From the IMG/VR virus record IMGVR_UViG_3300043399_000034, positions 1 to 20,348 of that record: DNA of 20,348 nt; one strand, written 5' to 3'. The translations under genes and the position numbers were made by a program. This stretch comes from a virus. The notes under the pieces were generated by a model. It searched no databases. It was not told the origin of the DNA and was given only the letters and a program-made list of their open reading frames with translations. Of the stretch, positions 4,503 to 15,007 are shown in pieces (the stretch's first letter is position 1; the number at the start of each line of letters is the position of its first letter).

Positions 4503-5675
4503 ATGGATATTAAAGAACTAAAAGGTCATTTTGACCAAGCCGCAGTAGAAATGAAATCTTTGGTTGAGCGTCAATCAGAAGAAATCAAAAAGCATGGCGA
4601 AACAACTGCCGCTACTGCCGCAGAAATGAAAACTGTTGGCTCACGCATTGATGCAATTCAAGCTGATTTAGAAGCATTCCAAAAGAAGGCTAACCATGTT
4701 GGCTTTGGCGCACAAGCTCCAGTAGCTAAATCATTGGGTCAGCAATTTGTTGATTCTGACGAATTCAAATATGCTTCAGAACGTGGTTTGAAGTCAGTAA
4801 ACCCAGTAACTCTTGGTGGTATGTTCCGTAAAGACATCACTTCAGCGAATGGTCCAACTCCACAAGCAATGCGCTTGCCTGAGTTCTATTCTCCGACCGG
4901 TGACCGCACTGCACACATCCGTAACTTCTTGAATGTTTCTTCTACACAATCTAATGCGATTGAGTATTTCGTTGAAACTTTCACGAACAATGCTGCCGCT
5001 CAAACTGCTGAATTAGCCGCTAAAGCTGAATCAGAGTTGGCATATGACTTGGTTTCAACACCAGTTCAGACTATTGCTCACTATGTTGTTGCTTCACGCC
5101 AAATCCTTAGCGATGCCGCAATGTTGCAAAACCAAATTGACAATCGTTTGACATATGGCTTGGCACTTAAAGAAGACCAACAGTTGCTATACGGAACTGG
5201 CTCAAGCGGTCAATTAGAAGGCTTGATGGTTAATGCTTCTGTTCAAGACGCAGGTGATGTTGCTTCAGGTGACAACCTTGTAGACCATATCCGTAAAGCT
5301 ATCGCACTTGCCGCAACAAGCGAGTATCTTGCAAACGGTATCATTTTGAACCCAACAGACTTCGCTAATATCGAATTGTTGAAGGGTGATGATGGTCACT
5401 ACATCTGGGCTAATGTAGCTCAAGGTGGCGAGCCACGCTTGTGGAGAGTTCCTGTCTATGAATCAACTGCTATGACTGCAGGCGAGTTCTTGCTAGGTAA
5501 CTGGAATCTTGGCGCAACATTGTTTGACCGTGAACAAGCTACAGTTCGTATCGCTGAGCAACACGCTGACCTATTTATCAAGAACGGTGTTGTTGTTCTT
5601 GGTGAAGAGCGTATCGCTTTGGCAGTATATCGCCCTGAATCGTTTGTTAAGGGTTCATTCAGCCCTGCGGCTTAA
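4503..5675 (+). CDS. Major capsid protein, HK97 fold
   Basis: This 390-residue protein would build the icosahedral head. Residues 1-65 are a heptad-like, charged coiled coil (the delta scaffold domain expected to be removed by the upstream protease). The remainder fits the HK97 capsid family: a flexible E-loop region around 105-140, the spine helix and P domain around 180-230 (ASRQILSDAAMLQNQID), then LLYGTGSSGQLEGL (228-241) and a closing segment ending RPESFVKGSF. AGGAAA at 4491-4496 gives a strong Shine-Dalgarno. Codon choice differs from the neighbours (more TTG for Leu, CGT for Arg, AAC for Asn), as expected for the most abundant product. Whether chains are covalently cross-linked as in HK97 cannot be judged here. 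The gene also holds three otherwise avoided restriction-type motifs (4781-4996). Confidence 0.97.
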   Translation: MDIKELKGHFDQAAVEMKSLVERQSEEIKKHGETTAATAAEMKTVGSRIDAIQADLEAFQKKANHVGFGAQAPVAKSLGQQFVDSDEFKYASERGLKSVNPVTLGGMFRKDITSANGPTPQAMRLPEFYSPTGDRTAHIRNFLNVSSTQSNAIEYFVETFTNNAAAQTAELAAKAESELAYDLVSTPVQTIAHYVVASRQILSDAAMLQNQIDNRLTYGLALKEDQQLLYGTGSSGQLEGLMVNASVQDAGDVASGDNLVDHIRKAIALAATSEYLANGIILNPTDFANIELLKGDDGHYIWANVAQGGEPRLWRVPVYESTAMTAGEFLLGNWNLGATLFDREQATVRIAEQHADLFIKNGVVVLGEERIALAVYRPESFVKGSFSPAA

Positions 5676-5936: not shown

Positions 5937-6543
5937 TGGTTACGCACTAAAAGCAGGTGAAGCAATTTGTCCTGCTACTGAGCAAGACTTAAAAGACTAT
6001 TTGCGCATTGAAGATGAATCATGCGGTAGTCTTGAGTTCTACTTGGATGCGGCCAATAAGGCGGTCATTTCATTTTTAGGTCAAGCCCTAATCACTAACG
6101 AATATACATTGGTGTTTAATGGCTATCCATTTAGCGGCACTGCCACATTTGGCTTGAGCAGAGATACGACTGTATTTAAAGAGTGGATTGAGTTGCCATA
6201 CGCTAATTTGATTGATGTCGTGAGCGTAGAAGTATTAGATAATGATGATGGCACTGCAACACCTATTACATCTTCCGATTATCTATTAGACACATTCAGC
6301 TCTCCTGCTCGCATCAGATTCACCAATATGCCAGTGATGGGCCTTAAAGATAGGCTAAAAATCGTTTATAACGCAGGCTATGGCTCTGACACAGAAGATG
6401 TGCCTAAAGGTATCAGATTGGGTATTGTGCAGGTCGCAGGCTACCTATATGACCACAGAGGCGAGTGTTCTCCTGAAGAGGCCATTATGAAGTCAGGCGC
6501 AGGCATGGCATTGAATCCATATAGAGTTTTTACTAAGCTATGA
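5923..6543 (+). CDS. Head-tail connector protein (phiE125 gp8 / HK97 gp6-like)
   Basis: This 206-residue protein resembles connector subunits that form a ring under the portal and begin the head-tail joint. The N-terminal helix pair typical of the gp6/phiE125 gp8 group is visible (ATEQDLKDYLRIEDES at 18-33, then an Ala-rich helix with AVISFLGQAL). A beta-rich middle and a second helical part with IRLGIVQVAGYLYDHRG near the C terminus complete the pattern. AAAGGTGAG at 5912-5920 serves as ribosome-binding site inside the end of the previous gene. The stop overlaps the next start as ATGA. In an uninterrupted version of this operon that next gene would be the head-tail adaptor at 7025. Confidence 0.85.
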   Translation: MNPINGYALKAGEAICPATEQDLKDYLRIEDESCGSLEFYLDAANKAVISFLGQALITNEYTLVFNGYPFSGTATFGLSRDTTVFKEWIELPYANLIDVVSVEVLDNDDGTATPITSSDYLLDTFSSPARIRFTNMPVMGLKDRLKIVYNAGYGSDTEDVPKGIRLGIVQVAGYLYDHRGECSPEEAIMKSGAGMALNPYRVFTKL

Positions 6544-7029
6544 ACAAGGAATTTTTATTAAATTACATGAATGAGCATTTTAAATATTGCTCAGATGGAA
6601 ATTTTGTTTTAATAAAAAAACAATATAAAGGCAGTGTAATTGGCACACCTGTTGGATGGCTTCAAAAAAATGGATATTTAAGAATATCAATTAAAGGAAA
6701 GTTTTATCAGGCTCATAGATTGGTATGGTTGTTTCATAAAAAAGAATTGCCTTTATATGACATTGACCACATCAATGGAAATAAATCAGATAATAGAATT
6801 GAAAATTTAAGAGATATTAACCATAAATTAAACACTCAAAATATTTCAAAACCCAAAAAGAATAACGCACTGGGAATTTTGGGAGTAACAAAAGTTAAAA
6901 ATAAATTTGCATCAAACATATGGCTAAATGGTAAGCAAAAATATTTAGGAAAATTTGATGATATTGAACTTGCTGAACTCGTATATCAAGAGGCAAAAAT
7001 AAAATATCATGTGGGATATGTTTTATGAA
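6539..7029 (+). mobile_element. Homing-endonuclease insertion unit bounded by TATGAA direct repeats
   Basis: TATGAA occurs at 6539-6544 (connector stop/HNH start) and again at 7024-7029 (HNH stop/adaptor start). Deleting one copy plus the sequence between them recreates a single ATGA junction in which the connector stop codon overlaps the adaptor start codon, as at other junctions in this operon. The unit therefore looks like a seamless insertion into an ancestral connector-adaptor junction. The six-base match is short and partly forced by the ATGA overlaps. Confidence 0.55.
6540..7028 (+). CDS. HNH homing endonuclease with C-terminal AP2 domain
   Basis: This 162-residue protein is a free-standing homing endonuclease, not a morphogenesis protein. 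Residues about 57-100 form the HNH_3-type nuclease: HRLVWLFHKK (59-68), the IDHINGNKSDN core (75-85) carrying metal-binding and catalytic His/Asn, and the closing RIENLRDINHKLNTQN. Residues about 110-160 are an AP2-type DNA-binding domain (GILGVTKVKNKFASNIW, then KYLGKFDDIELAEL). Base composition is clearly more AT-rich than the flanking genes (long A runs, ATA/AAA codons), supporting transfer. It overlaps both neighbours by ATGA, so it is translated with the operon without disrupting either. Such enzymes cut the empty allele in co-infecting phages and spread by repair. Confidence 0.93.
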   Translation: MNKEFLLNYMNEHFKYCSDGNFVLIKKQYKGSVIGTPVGWLQKNGYLRISIKGKFYQAHRLVWLFHKKELPLYDIDHINGNKSDNRIENLRDINHKLNTQNISKPKKNNALGILGVTKVKNKFASNIWLNGKQKYLGKFDDIELAELVYQEAKIKYHVGYVL

Positions 7030-11025: not shown

Positions 11026-11813
11026 TTAAAATTCAAACAGGATTCAACCCTACAATTCCTCTAAGTCATTCTCGTATAGGCCATCAAACTTATACTAGAA
11101 CTGGCACTGCTACTGCATCTTCAGCGCAGGTTGATTTTCCTGCCGATGCTCCTCTTAATGAATTGACCTATGAGTTTTGGCGGCCAAATTTATTACCTGC
11201 TACATGGACTTTAGATGCAGGCTCAAGCGTATCTGCTAATTATTTTGGCATTGCGGCTCATACATTAGGCGCAAGCGGAAATACAGTAACGATTCAAGGG
11301 TCAAATGATAATATTACTTATACAGATATTGATTCTATTACTCCTAGCGATAACTCTCCAATTATGTTTTTATTTGCAAGCGCAAGCTATCGCTACTGGA
11401 GAATTAGCATTTCAAGCGGCACATTTCCTAGTATTGGCGTTATCTATGTTGGAACGGTCCTAGAAATGCTCAGACCTTGCTATGGCGGCCTAACTCCTAT
11501 CAGTTTAAGTAGAGATAGTGTAATCAGACCAAATCGCTCTGAGGGCGGCCAATGGCTTGGTAGAAGTGTTATCCGTAGTGGTTCATCCATGAAGGTTGGA
11601 TATGCCAACTTAGAAAATAACTGGGTTAGGACCACATTTAAAGATTTTATTGAAGATGCGGTTTTATACCCGTTCTTTTTCGCATGGCGGCCTGATAACT
11701 ATCCTGAGGATGTTGGATATGTTTGGGTTGGCGATGATATTAAACCTAGCAATATGGGCAGAAATAGCTTAATGCAAGTGAGTTTTGATATGTCGGGGTT
11801 ATCAAGTGAATGA
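11022..11813 (+). CDS. Distal tail-region protein with discoidin-like domain
   Basis: This 263-residue protein follows the tape measure, where distal tail proteins are encoded. It begins with GTG at 11022, overlapping the tape measure stop. Residues about 38-147 read like an F5/8 type C (discoidin-like) beta-sandwich: TWTLDAGSSVSANYFGIAAH (61-80), TVTIQGSNDNITYTDIDSI (88-106), then a SYRYWRISIS strand (122-131). The C-terminal half (from about 150) carries RSVIRSGSSMKVGYANLENN and FFFAWRPDNYPEDVGYVWVG, which look like phage tail adaptor sequence. I suggest a ring or adaptor protein at the tail tip with a built-in carbohydrate-binding-like domain. The exact family is not recognised; domain and role are inferred from pattern and position. 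Confidence 0.62.
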   Translation: MIKIQTGFNPTIPLSHSRIGHQTYTRTGTATASSAQVDFPADAPLNELTYEFWRPNLLPATWTLDAGSSVSANYFGIAAHTLGASGNTVTIQGSNDNITYTDIDSITPSDNSPIMFLFASASYRYWRISISSGTFPSIGVIYVGTVLEMLRPCYGGLTPISLSRDSVIRPNRSEGGQWLGRSVIRSGSSMKVGYANLENNWVRTTFKDFIEDAVLYPFFFAWRPDNYPEDVGYVWVGDDIKPSNMGRNSLMQVSFDMSGLSSE

Positions 11814-13566
11814 GTTTACGGTTGGTAGAACGCCACTCACATTAGTTCAGATTGACCAAGATTTTTGCAATCTGACTTATGGTGTTGCGCCTTGCACCGC
11901 ATCTAACCCATTAAATAAATGCTTTAATACTTATGCGACTTGCCAAGTTCAAGGCGTGTATGACAAAGGCGTTAAGACTATTACATTTGGCAAGCCTGAA
12001 TCTGATTTGCCTAGAGATATGAATATATTGCCAATGCTTACTTCGGTAACGACTGCGGCCACAAAGATTAACCCGACTAATGGCAATAGCAATATCAGCC
12101 CATTAGGTCAAAGAGCAGTTGCAACTATTACATTCCTAGATGCGCCATATAGCGATATGCTCACAGACCCATATAGAGCAGACCGCAGTTATATTCCTAT
12201 TAACAATGGCACATTTTGGACTAAGTGGTTAGTGCGAAATCCTTATTATCAGAATAGACCTATTAGGATTTATGAGGGATATTTAGGTCAAACTTTGGCA
12301 GAGATGCAAGTTCGCCACTATTTAATTGATACTATTACTGGGCCTGATTCAAATGGCAAAGTAAGCATTGTTGCTAAAGACCCATTAAAACTTGCCGATA
12401 GACAAAAATCACAAGCTCCTGCGCTTACTACTGGTGAATTAAATGCTGATATTGATGCAACTAAGACAACTATTACAGTTATTAAAGCACAGTTAGCAGA
12501 TTATCCGACAAGCGGAACTTTGCGTATTGATGATGAGCTAATGACTTATACAGGCAGGACCAATATCGGAACTGTTGATGATGTCATTATTCAATTCACA
12601 GGCATTACTCGTGGCACCGATGGCTCACAAGCTGATATACACGACACAGATTCTAATGTGCAGTTATGCCTAAGATATACAGACACGCAAGTATGGGATG
12701 TGGCTTATGACCTATTAACAACATACGCTAAGATTCCTTCCTCATATATTCCTTATGCCGATTGGAACGCAGAAGGAGCAGTATGGTTGCCACAGTTTAA
12801 TGTCAGCACTTTAATCACAGAGCCTACTGGCGTTGCAGACCTATTATATGAATTAATGGAGCAAGTCCTATTTTATATTTGGTGGGATGAGCGTGACCAA
12901 GAAATTAAATTAAGAGCTATTAGACCTATTATAGGAGATGCTCCTGTATTCACAGACGATAATAATATTATTGAAAACTCAGTTAGCTTTAGCACTGACC
13001 CTAAAAATCGAGTAAGCCAAGTATGGGTTTATTACAATCCACGCAATCGTGCAGAAGATGTTGATAACGCAAGCAACTATCAACAGATTGAGCTTCGTGC
13101 AGACTTAGATGCTGAAAGCGATAACCAATATGGAGAAAGTCGCATCCGCAAGATTTATGCAAGATGGATTCAGAATAACGCTCAGGCAATTAACTTAGCG
13201 GCAAGACTATTAGGCGCAAGTTTTAACAATCCAAAATATATTAAGATTAGAGTTGATGCTAAGGATAGGCAAATTTGGACTGCTGATATTGTGGACATTT
13301 ATAACCGCAATATCGTAAACTTCAATGGTGAGCAAGAATTAGAGCGGTATCAGATTCTTAGCGTTAATGAAGTGGTATCAGGCGAAGTTATTGAATACGA
13401 AATGCAGAAGTTCTTGTTTAGAGGAACACGCTTTGGATTCTATATGCTACCTGATGCACCTTTATATGTAGATGCAACACCTGAGCAAAGAGAATCGCCT
13501 TCAGGTTGGTATGCAGATAATTTAGGATTAATGCCCGATGGTTCAGAGGGTTGGGAATATCAATAA
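11806..13566 (+). CDS. Tail tip/hub protein with N-terminal four-cysteine motif
   Basis: This protein of about 586 residues is probably the central tail-tip (hub) component. Near the N terminus, C21, C30, C39 and C46 form an ordered set (C-x8-C-x8-C-x6-C) within FCNLTYGVAPC and KCFNTYATCQ. The middle contains TSGTLRIDDELMTYTGR, a motif often seen in siphophage hub proteins, and a WDVAYDLLTTYAKIP helix region. The C-terminal half carries YIWWDERDQEIKLRAIRP and a beta-rich stretch. I prefer the GTG at 11806, which overlaps the previous stop by eight bases and has CGGGGT at 11794-11799 as ribosome-binding site; a TTG at 11785 would add seven residues lacking family character. Function is inferred from size, cysteine motif and position between the distal tail and adhesin genes. 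Confidence 0.75.
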   Translation: MNEFTVGRTPLTLVQIDQDFCNLTYGVAPCTASNPLNKCFNTYATCQVQGVYDKGVKTITFGKPESDLPRDMNILPMLTSVTTAATKINPTNGNSNISPLGQRAVATITFLDAPYSDMLTDPYRADRSYIPINNGTFWTKWLVRNPYYQNRPIRIYEGYLGQTLAEMQVRHYLIDTITGPDSNGKVSIVAKDPLKLADRQKSQAPALTTGELNADIDATKTTITVIKAQLADYPTSGTLRIDDELMTYTGRTNIGTVDDVIIQFTGITRGTDGSQADIHDTDSNVQLCLRYTDTQVWDVAYDLLTTYAKIPSSYIPYADWNAEGAVWLPQFNVSTLITEPTGVADLLYELMEQVLFYIWWDERDQEIKLRAIRPIIGDAPVFTDDNNIIENSVSFSTDPKNRVSQVWVYYNPRNRAEDVDNASNYQQIELRADLDAESDNQYGESRIRKIYARWIQNNAQAINLAARLLGASFNNPKYIKIRVDAKDRQIWTADIVDIYNRNIVNFNGEQELERYQILSVNEVVSGEVIEYEMQKFLFRGTRFGFYMLPDAPLYVDATPEQRESPSGWYADNLGLMPDGSEGWEYQ

Positions 13567-13575
13567 GGAGTAGTA

Positions 13576-14358
13576 ATGGCAACTTGGACAAATATACCTA
13601 ACGCCAACTTGGCGGCAGGCGCACCTATTAGAAGCGTTGATACTCTTGCATTAAGAGATAACGCTATTGTGGCCAGTGGAGTTAGAGGGCAGGTTTTTAC
13701 ATCAAGCGGAACTTTTACAGTCCCTGCAAATGTGGAAGCAGTTAAAGTAACTGTTATCGGCGGTGGCGGTGGTGGCGGTAGAGGAACAGATGGTTTATCA
13801 GGTGGTGGTGGCGGTGGTGGTGGCGGTGTAGCTATTGAATACATCACAGGATTAACTCCATCTTCTAGCGTATCTGTAACAGTAGGTAGTGGCGGAACTT
13901 TTGGTGTTTCTGGTGGAACATCATCATTTGGTGCATTTTGTTCTGCAACAGGCGGTACTACTGGTGCTACTAGCAATACAACAAGTGCTGGCGGTACAGG
14001 AGGAACTGCAAGCGGTGGAAATTTGAATATGAATGGTGGTTCAGGTTCAGCTTCATTAGTTGTGGCAGATGCAACAGGAACTGAATGTTGGGTTGGTGGT
14101 GGCGGTGGAGGTTCAGGTGGTGCAAAAGGTGTTTCGGCAGTTAATGCAAGTTCTGTATACAGTACAAGCCTAGGATTTTCAACTGGAGGGTCAGGATTTT
14201 TTACTGGTGCTGGTGGTGCAGGAGGTATTTCTACTGGTACTCCAGGTAGTAACGCAGGGGAAAGTGCTACTGGCTTTGGTAATGGCGGTGGCGGTTCAGT
14301 TAGAAATATTGCAGGCGCGGGATCTGGAACTGCAGGCATAGTTATAGTTGAATGGTAA
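13576..14358 (+). CDS. Glycine-rich tail adhesin-like protein
   Basis: This 260-residue protein starts with a short non-repetitive part (1-40, ATWTNIPNANLAAGAPIRSV) that may dock to the tail. It continues with GQVFTSSGTFTVPANVEAVK (36-55) leading into VTVIGGGGGGGRG and repeated G-rich runs to the C terminus, which ends GIVIVEW. Glycine-rich phage proteins of this design include adhesins in which parallel polyglycine helices carry variable receptor-binding loops (the gp38-type adhesins of T-even-like phages). That comparison is by composition only. AAGGAG at 13565-13570 gives a strong ribosome-binding site. The 3' half (13955-14324) contains seven motifs that are almost absent elsewhere in the window, so this part was probably acquired recently. 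It is a good candidate for a host-range determinant. Confidence 0.8.
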   Translation: MATWTNIPNANLAAGAPIRSVDTLALRDNAIVASGVRGQVFTSSGTFTVPANVEAVKVTVIGGGGGGGRGTDGLSGGGGGGGGGVAIEYITGLTPSSSVSVTVGSGGTFGVSGGTSSFGAFCSATGGTTGATSNTTSAGGTGGTASGGNLNMNGGSGSASLVVADATGTECWVGGGGGGSGGAKGVSAVNASSVYSTSLGFSTGGSGFFTGAGGAGGISTGTPGSNAGESATGFGNGGGGSVRNIAGAGSGTAGIVIVEW

Positions 14359-14369
14359 TGGGTGAATAT

Positions 14370-14660
14370 ATGAAAAAAGCATTAATAGATACACAAACAA
14401 GCGTTTCGCATATTGTTTCTTGGGTAGAAATTCCTGATACAACCCCACAAAAATATGAAGCCGTATATGAAATTTATCCTAACTCAGCAAGAGTATGCGA
14501 AGTAACGGATACACCTTTTGAAGTTTATCCAACTTTAATTTGGGTTGATTGTGAAGATGAAGTTGTTGCAGACCAATATTATTACGACACAGAATCAAAA
14601 ACAATTAAGCCAGTAGAAAATGCAGAACCGCCTGCAACTGAAACTCCTATTGAGGAATAA
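14370..14660 (+). CDS. Small conserved phage protein, function unknown
   Basis: This protein of about 96 residues lies between the adhesin-like and fibre genes. It begins MKKALIDTQTSVSHIVSWVE, has YEIYPNSARVCEV, FEVYPTLIWVDCEDEVVADQ and ends in a Pro/Glu/Thr-rich acidic tail. Short proteins with a similar 'MKKALI ... W ... P-x-S-x-R-V-x-E-V ... L-x-W-V-D-C' layout are familiar to me from fibre regions of aquatic phages, but I know of no established function. Two ATGs lie upstream (14352, 14358); I chose 14370 because GGGTGA (14360-14365) is spaced correctly for it. A role in fibre assembly or attachment is possible from location only. Confidence 0.72.
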   Translation: MKKALIDTQTSVSHIVSWVEIPDTTPQKYEAVYEIYPNSARVCEVTDTPFEVYPTLIWVDCEDEVVADQYYYDTESKTIKPVENAEPPATETPIEE

Positions 14661-14662
14661 TT

Positions 14663-15003
14663 ATGCTTGCAGGACTATTAGATATTGAAATTGAGCAGGG
14701 TGCTACATTTAACTTGGTATTTTTATATCAAGATGAAAACGGTGATGCTATTAACCTAACAGGTATGACTGCTCGTATGCAATTACGCAGAACTTATAAT
14801 AGTCCTGATGCTTTATTATCACTCACAAACGCAAATGGCAGAATTATATTTGACCCATTCGCAGGAAAAATTACGCTATCAGTTTCAGCGACAGACACTA
14901 CTCCGCTTACAGGTTCAGGCGTATATGACTTAGAGCTAATTGATGGCTCTACCGTTAATCGTATTCTTGAAGGCTCATTTAAGGTTTGCGCTGAGGCAAC
15001 TAA

Positions 15004-15007
<4 letters not shown>
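14663..15007 (+). CDS. Small beta-sandwich fibre-region protein (BppU-N-like pattern)
   Basis: This 114-residue protein has the layout of small beta-sandwich proteins next to phage fibres: [20 protein letters not shown] (8-27), [15 protein letters not shown] (29-43), [15 protein letters not shown] (68-82), YDLELIDG (88-95) and a final FKVCAEATK. The same order of strands (quasi-Ig fold, 'L-T-G-x-T-x-x-M-Q-L-R' then 'Y-D-L-E-L') occurs in N-terminal domains of baseplate upper proteins, so it may connect fibre to tail tip. GAGGAA lies upstream of the ATG. It ends in an ATGA overlap with the collagen-like fibre gene, arguing for coupled synthesis of both. The structural comparison is by eye. Confidence 0.72.

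Follow-up and report, generated by a model that had tools for sequence, protein, structure and literature searches.

A swapped putative receptor-binding head in a siphovirus-like phage, its distal part probably a recent import from a phage without the motif avoidance of this clade

The virus contig IMGVR_UViG_3300043399_000034 (IMG/VR; all of its 20,348 bases were analysed and are called the window here) contains a tail-tip adhesin gene whose receptor-binding head appears to have been swapped, with a distal part recently imported from a phage that did not avoid the motifs shunned by the clade of the window. We put the probability of this reading at about 0.7. The window is nearly free of six short motifs, and most of the exceptions lie in one 370-base stretch of the adhesin gene, which was probably acquired recently from another phage. 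The comparison was made mainly with R1 (IMGVR_UViG_3300047476_000222, IMG/VR), the closest relative with this locus.

Avoided motifs and the unpurged patch

The core motifs were GATC, GTAC, ACGT, CCGG, CGCG and CCWGG. Their counts in the window were 1, 4, 1, 1, 1 and 1, nine exceptions in all, while about 61, 37, 30, 26, 26 and 28 were expected from the dinucleotide composition. The avoidance is common to the clade, as R1, L059, L091 and L092 contain no GATC and no ACGT. As expected of a restriction-avoiding phage, several palindromes lie far below expectation both in this genome and in its relatives. To control for hindsight, avoided motifs were also derived from the four relatives only, with the window left out. 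This derivation yielded the same palindromes together with GCAGC, CCAGA, CCAGC, GACTC, GAGAC and GACGC. The clade formed by the window and these relatives shuns about a dozen short motifs, which suggests exposure to many restriction systems.

The gene and its parts are as follows.

13576 to 14358, + strand: adhesin gene, 260 amino acids, N-terminal anchor and TNF-like/glycine-rich head (open reading frame; Pfam PF21722; PHROG tail families; AlphaFold2/Foldseek)
13576 to 13662, + strand: conserved N-terminal anchor (about residues 1-29), with 25 of 27 residues in common with R1
13663 to 13953, + strand: proximal glycine-rich/TNF-like half of the head, replaced relative to R1 and free of the six core motifs
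13955 to 14324, + strand: unpurged patch with seven avoided-motif sites, mostly hypervariable

The seven sites in the patch are GTAC at 13955, 13994, 14162 and 14237, CCAGG at 14242, CGCG at 14316 and GATC at 14321. All of them had been named in a first-pass annotation of this DNA, and all were confirmed. Its total of ten exceptions was not reproduced: nine were counted for the six motifs and no tenth was matched, the two outside the patch being ACGT at 4781 and CCGG at 4897. When codons were shuffled among synonyms, 6.1-7.3 core sites were expected in the distal adhesin segment (13954-14355). The seven observed match this number, so the segment is unpurged and stands at full neutral density. 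The other genes together contain 2 core sites versus about 182-189 expected, and the core-site density in the rest of the window is about 1% of neutral. Weighted by exposure and before any scan correction, the probability that 7 or more of the 9 sites fall in the distal segment was about 1e-9 to 3e-9, and none of 2000 simulations with uniform placement gave an equally tight cluster. These values should be read with the caveat that both the motifs and the patch were picked with the data in view. With the relative-derived motifs absent from the first list, 3 of 12 window sites fell in the distal segment (P about 0.0025), a weaker repeat of the pattern.

The proximal half of the head has no core site versus 2.9-3.8 expected (P about 0.01-0.02), a moderate contrast with the distal part. 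This bears out the earlier statement that the 5' part of the gene is motif-free. The downstream open reading frame (ORF2) also contains none, versus 1.3-2.0 expected.

Exchange of the head and ORF2 relative to R1

The predicted protein matched the Gly_rich_2 family (PF21722) over residues 42-260 and profile positions 1-225 of 226 (E 1.2e-13; 52 bits versus a cut-off of 24.3). Its AlphaFold2 model had a mean pLDDT (predicted local distance difference test) of 82, and the top Foldseek match was the Pam3 fibre 7ypx (E 3.5e-7) at moderate TM values (TMq 0.52, TMt 0.54). The family and fold matches support the view that the gene encodes a glycine-rich adhesin of the receptor-binding kind. Its role as the host-range module is predicted from the family.

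The elements around the head are the following.

11785 to 13566, + strand: left flank, tail-tip protein, 84% identical in R1 and without any avoided motif
13899 to 13960, + strand: conserved DNA block GGTSSFGAFCSATGG, common to about 25 phage groups by blastn depth, candidate left crossover zone
14316 to 14388, + strand: conserved C-terminus (GTAGIVIVEW) and start of ORF2, seen in the depth profile, candidate right crossover zone
14352 to 14660, + strand: ORF2, 102 amino acids, predicted all-beta small protein, downstream of glycine-rich heads in L002, L003, L004, L011, L012 and others
14663 to 15007, + strand: right flank, 114-amino-acid protein, where the R1 alignment resumes at 83% identity

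R1 has 72-83% DNA identity to the window and likewise avoids the motifs. Their alignment runs to 13661 and resumes at 14663, with none between. Adhesin residues 1-29 are nearly identical in R1, the remainder of the head and the next open reading frame are unrelated, and R1 has an unrelated 88-amino-acid open reading frame at the position of ORF2. The head and ORF2 (about 13662-14660) have been exchanged as a unit relative to R1. The first-pass annotation had expected the N-terminal part and the flanks to align in a related phage, as they do in R1, where the C-terminal part is wholly different. It had also limited the exchange to the distal part. Because R1 differs over the whole head and the next open reading frame, the replaced unit is wider than 13955-14324 and includes ORF2; what is confined to the distal part is the absence of purging.

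A survey with the anchor only found about 40 viral contigs, mostly with non-glycine C-termini of many kinds. Among them the glycine-rich type stands behind this anchor only in the window and in the L067/L070/L073 group. In L002, L003, L011 and L012, heads with 70-71% protein identity to the proximal half stand behind unrelated N-termini. The expected match to a different phage lineage was thus found for the proximal head and for ORF2 (50-58% protein identity), while the donor search for the distal half was empty. Most of the glycine-rich heads (L002-L073) have a third-position GC much lower than the phage that carries them (ratio 0.4-0.9); a common circulating pool or a coding constraint might explain this. 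Foreign codon composition was therefore rejected as evidence of import.

Within the left conserved zone, a 46-base block is 83-89% identical across 11 phage contigs. In the right zone, a 63-base block has 75-79% identity to L011 and L002 and about 59% to L004/L009. Between these zones, DNA homology in the blastn depth profile is absent at 14059-14259 and is back at 14279-14600. Variation in the sister trio L067/L070/L073 is seen at the corresponding position: identity is 85-99% in most 100-base bins of the anchor start and the downstream gene but drops to 55-73%, with gaps, through most of the head.

The ORF2 model had no PDB match with E <1 (Foldseek). ORF2 alone as a search query gave no relatives; the loci found through the adhesin nonetheless hold ORF2 homologues. 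We propose, by analogy, that ORF2 is a putative head-specific assembly factor.

Probable import of the distal half and competing explanations

In the proposed mechanism, the short N-terminal anchor would fix the protein onto the tail tip, as its conservation implies. The TNF-like and polyglycine head with variable tips would contact the host surface, and a small cognate open reading frame comes next. The distal half (about 13955-14324) would come from a phage without this avoidance, and its neutral site density suggests that the arrival was too recent for purging. The word recent, used in the earlier annotation, fits this density and holds only relative to the rate of purging. A likely route is homologous recombination across the conserved glycine-rich blocks, possibly helped by a Sak-type annealase. 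R1 encodes SSAP_Sak, a YqaJ nuclease and SSB, and L092 encodes YqaJ and SSB. Rad52-like phage recombinases, of which Sak is one group, drive mosaicism across diverged DNA (PMC3945230); the same study did not settle whether the relaxed fidelity seen with lambda Red beta extends to the Sak and Erf groups.

Could the glycine-rich sequence of the protein, or its codon bias, dictate the sites? Glycine-threonine junctions with GGT make GTAC, and the adhesin gene has many GGT codons. However, the glycine codon before AC elsewhere in the window is GGC or GGA in 24 of 24 cases and GGT in none, even though the phage uses GGT most often for glycine; in the adhesin gene, GGT stands at 3 of 10 such junctions. 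The sites are therefore not forced by the amino acids. Consistently, the glycine-rich adhesins of the avoiding phages L004, L011 and L031 contain no avoided palindrome versus 5.7, 4.5 and 4.3 expected, and CCAGG, CGCG and GATC are not products of glycine-threonine junctions. This explanation, named in advance by the first-pass annotation as one of two findings that would overturn its reading, is hardly credible. An assembly chimera of two phages deserves a thought in a contig that is an IMG/VR virus record, as tail-tip loci are often variable. Against it stand the unbroken reading frame from the anchor through the head, the same order of anchor, glycine-rich head and ORF2 in the trio L067/L070/L073, and the intragenic position of the patch, which is flanked by motif-free parts of the adhesin gene and ORF2. 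We consider a chimera very improbable. The head may instead have diversified in place, selection for new receptor-binding loops being so fast that sites reappeared and were tolerated. The hypervariability of the segment in the sister clade, its lack of a DNA homologue among the examined loci and the missing donor would agree with this. But neutral density would need near-saturating change without counter-selection while the rest stays clean, and in other avoiding phages the hypervariable heads are free of the sites that each phage avoids, so diversification in place is unlikely.

With import preferred, the number of events has to be considered. The full head and ORF2 may have arrived at once, the site-free parts being due to chance or to the motif preferences of the donor. 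The break with R1 at 13662 and 14660 fits a single event, as does the joint travel of the glycine-rich head and ORF2 in other phages. However, the proximal half and ORF2 together have no site versus 4.2-5.8 expected (Poisson P 0.003-0.015), so one event needs some luck, and homologous heads in other phages are equally site-dense in both halves (54 sites per 3105 bases proximally versus 66 per 3768 distally). A single event is quite possible, at odds below even. We slightly favour two steps, first an exchange of the head and afterwards a swap of its distal half, because the proximal half and ORF2 are site-free and the distal half lies between conserved blocks.

Several points weigh against a recently imported distal part. 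The site-free proximal half and ORF2 count here as well. The relatives-only motif set includes one site (13909) to the left of the patch, and the head's low GC at third positions is no sign of foreign origin. The Sak gene would be outside the window, its presence being presumed from R1. With the distal half as the query, no donor or confirmed relative was found, and near-identical records may escape such searches, so that variation inside the species would not show.

Related systems and other observations

The nearest fold to the head of the window is the tail fibre gp24 of cyanophage Pam3, which has the chaperone gp25 (PDB 7YPX; PMC9608196; TM about 0.53). It differs in its N-terminal anchor and has about 24% identity to the window adhesin. 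As ORF2 had no confident fold match, homology to gp25 is not claimed. The gp38 adhesins of T-even phages (T2, PP01 and Salmonella S16) also alternate glycine-rich motifs with hypervariable segments, and these segments determine receptor specificity (PMC12892980, PMC6851490). Hypervariable segments between glycine-rich motifs are present in the window head, as seen in the alignment and in the variability of the sister clade. No similarity to gp38 appeared among the PDB sequence matches or the fold matches listed. gp38 belongs to a long tail fibre whereas the window encodes a siphovirus tail tip, and a Pam3-like topology fits the window better.

Haloarchaeal viruses of the HF1 group (Hafunaviridae) resemble the window in having a glycine-rich adhesin followed by a small gene, a hypervariable host-range locus and extreme palindrome avoidance (PMC8651126, PMC7230728). 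They differ in being archaeal viruses, GATC and CTAG are wholly absent in the isolates, and an unpurged adhesin patch was not reported in these papers. That host range depends on variable glycine-rich adhesin segments is established both for the gp38 type and for viruses of haloarchaea (PMC12892980, PMC8651126). Motif avoidance is widespread among prokaryotic viruses, with strong depletion of short palindromes and 5-mers as in the window (PMC6286503). Unlike in those cases, the information in the window sits in the exceptions and not in the depletion.

Head swapping is already well known; what is of interest here is that the motifs leave a footprint of recency. Swaps are usually detected by comparing many genomes. 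A single genome was sufficient here because the rest is so purged that a stretch of about 400 bases at neutral density stands out. Among the open-access texts searched, we saw none that took a region's return to neutral site density as a mark of a fresh receptor-binding import. It is a tentative and rather doubtful extension that the purging of avoided motifs could serve as a clock, by which unpurged patches in heavily avoiding phages would flag the latest receptor-binding imports and rank exchanges by age, down to the half-gene scale and without the donor. If this generalised, it would give relative ages of exchanges, and it would suggest that a new host-range part carries a cost, namely restriction sites back in the genome. 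A general rule that exceptions cluster in the adhesins of avoiding phages was unsupported, as only the window was significant among the loci examined. R1 showed just a weak tendency of this kind, and its own head gives a weaker version with 2 sites versus 4.6 expected.

The window has a siphovirus-like set of head and tail genes. By open reading frames and PHROG/Pfam matches, these encode a terminase, an HK97-type capsid protein and tail proteins, with the adhesin and a collagen-like fibre next in order. No isolate phage record with this adhesin was found, and a scan of genome contigs for prophage relatives gave one weak match only. No DNA methyltransferase was seen among the scanned proteins of the relatives, in a partial scan. 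In R1 (L090, 7619-9159), a ParB-like gene lies beside one for a TET-associated glycosyltransferase (PF20691); this family has links to DNA base modification. Six of the ten core-motif exceptions of R1 (L060, L066) lie in its tail-fibre region (contig positions 30149-33552).

In the window, the capsid protein gene (4503-5675) forms a mild second cluster. It holds 6 of the 10 extended-list exceptions outside the adhesin gene, namely the ACGT at 4781, the CCGG at 4897 and four more. An HNH endonuclease open reading frame (6540-7028, 27% GC) separates two genes that are direct neighbours in R1 and L059, and R1 lacks this open reading frame. Because none of the avoided motifs lies inside it, this open reading frame may be an older insert.
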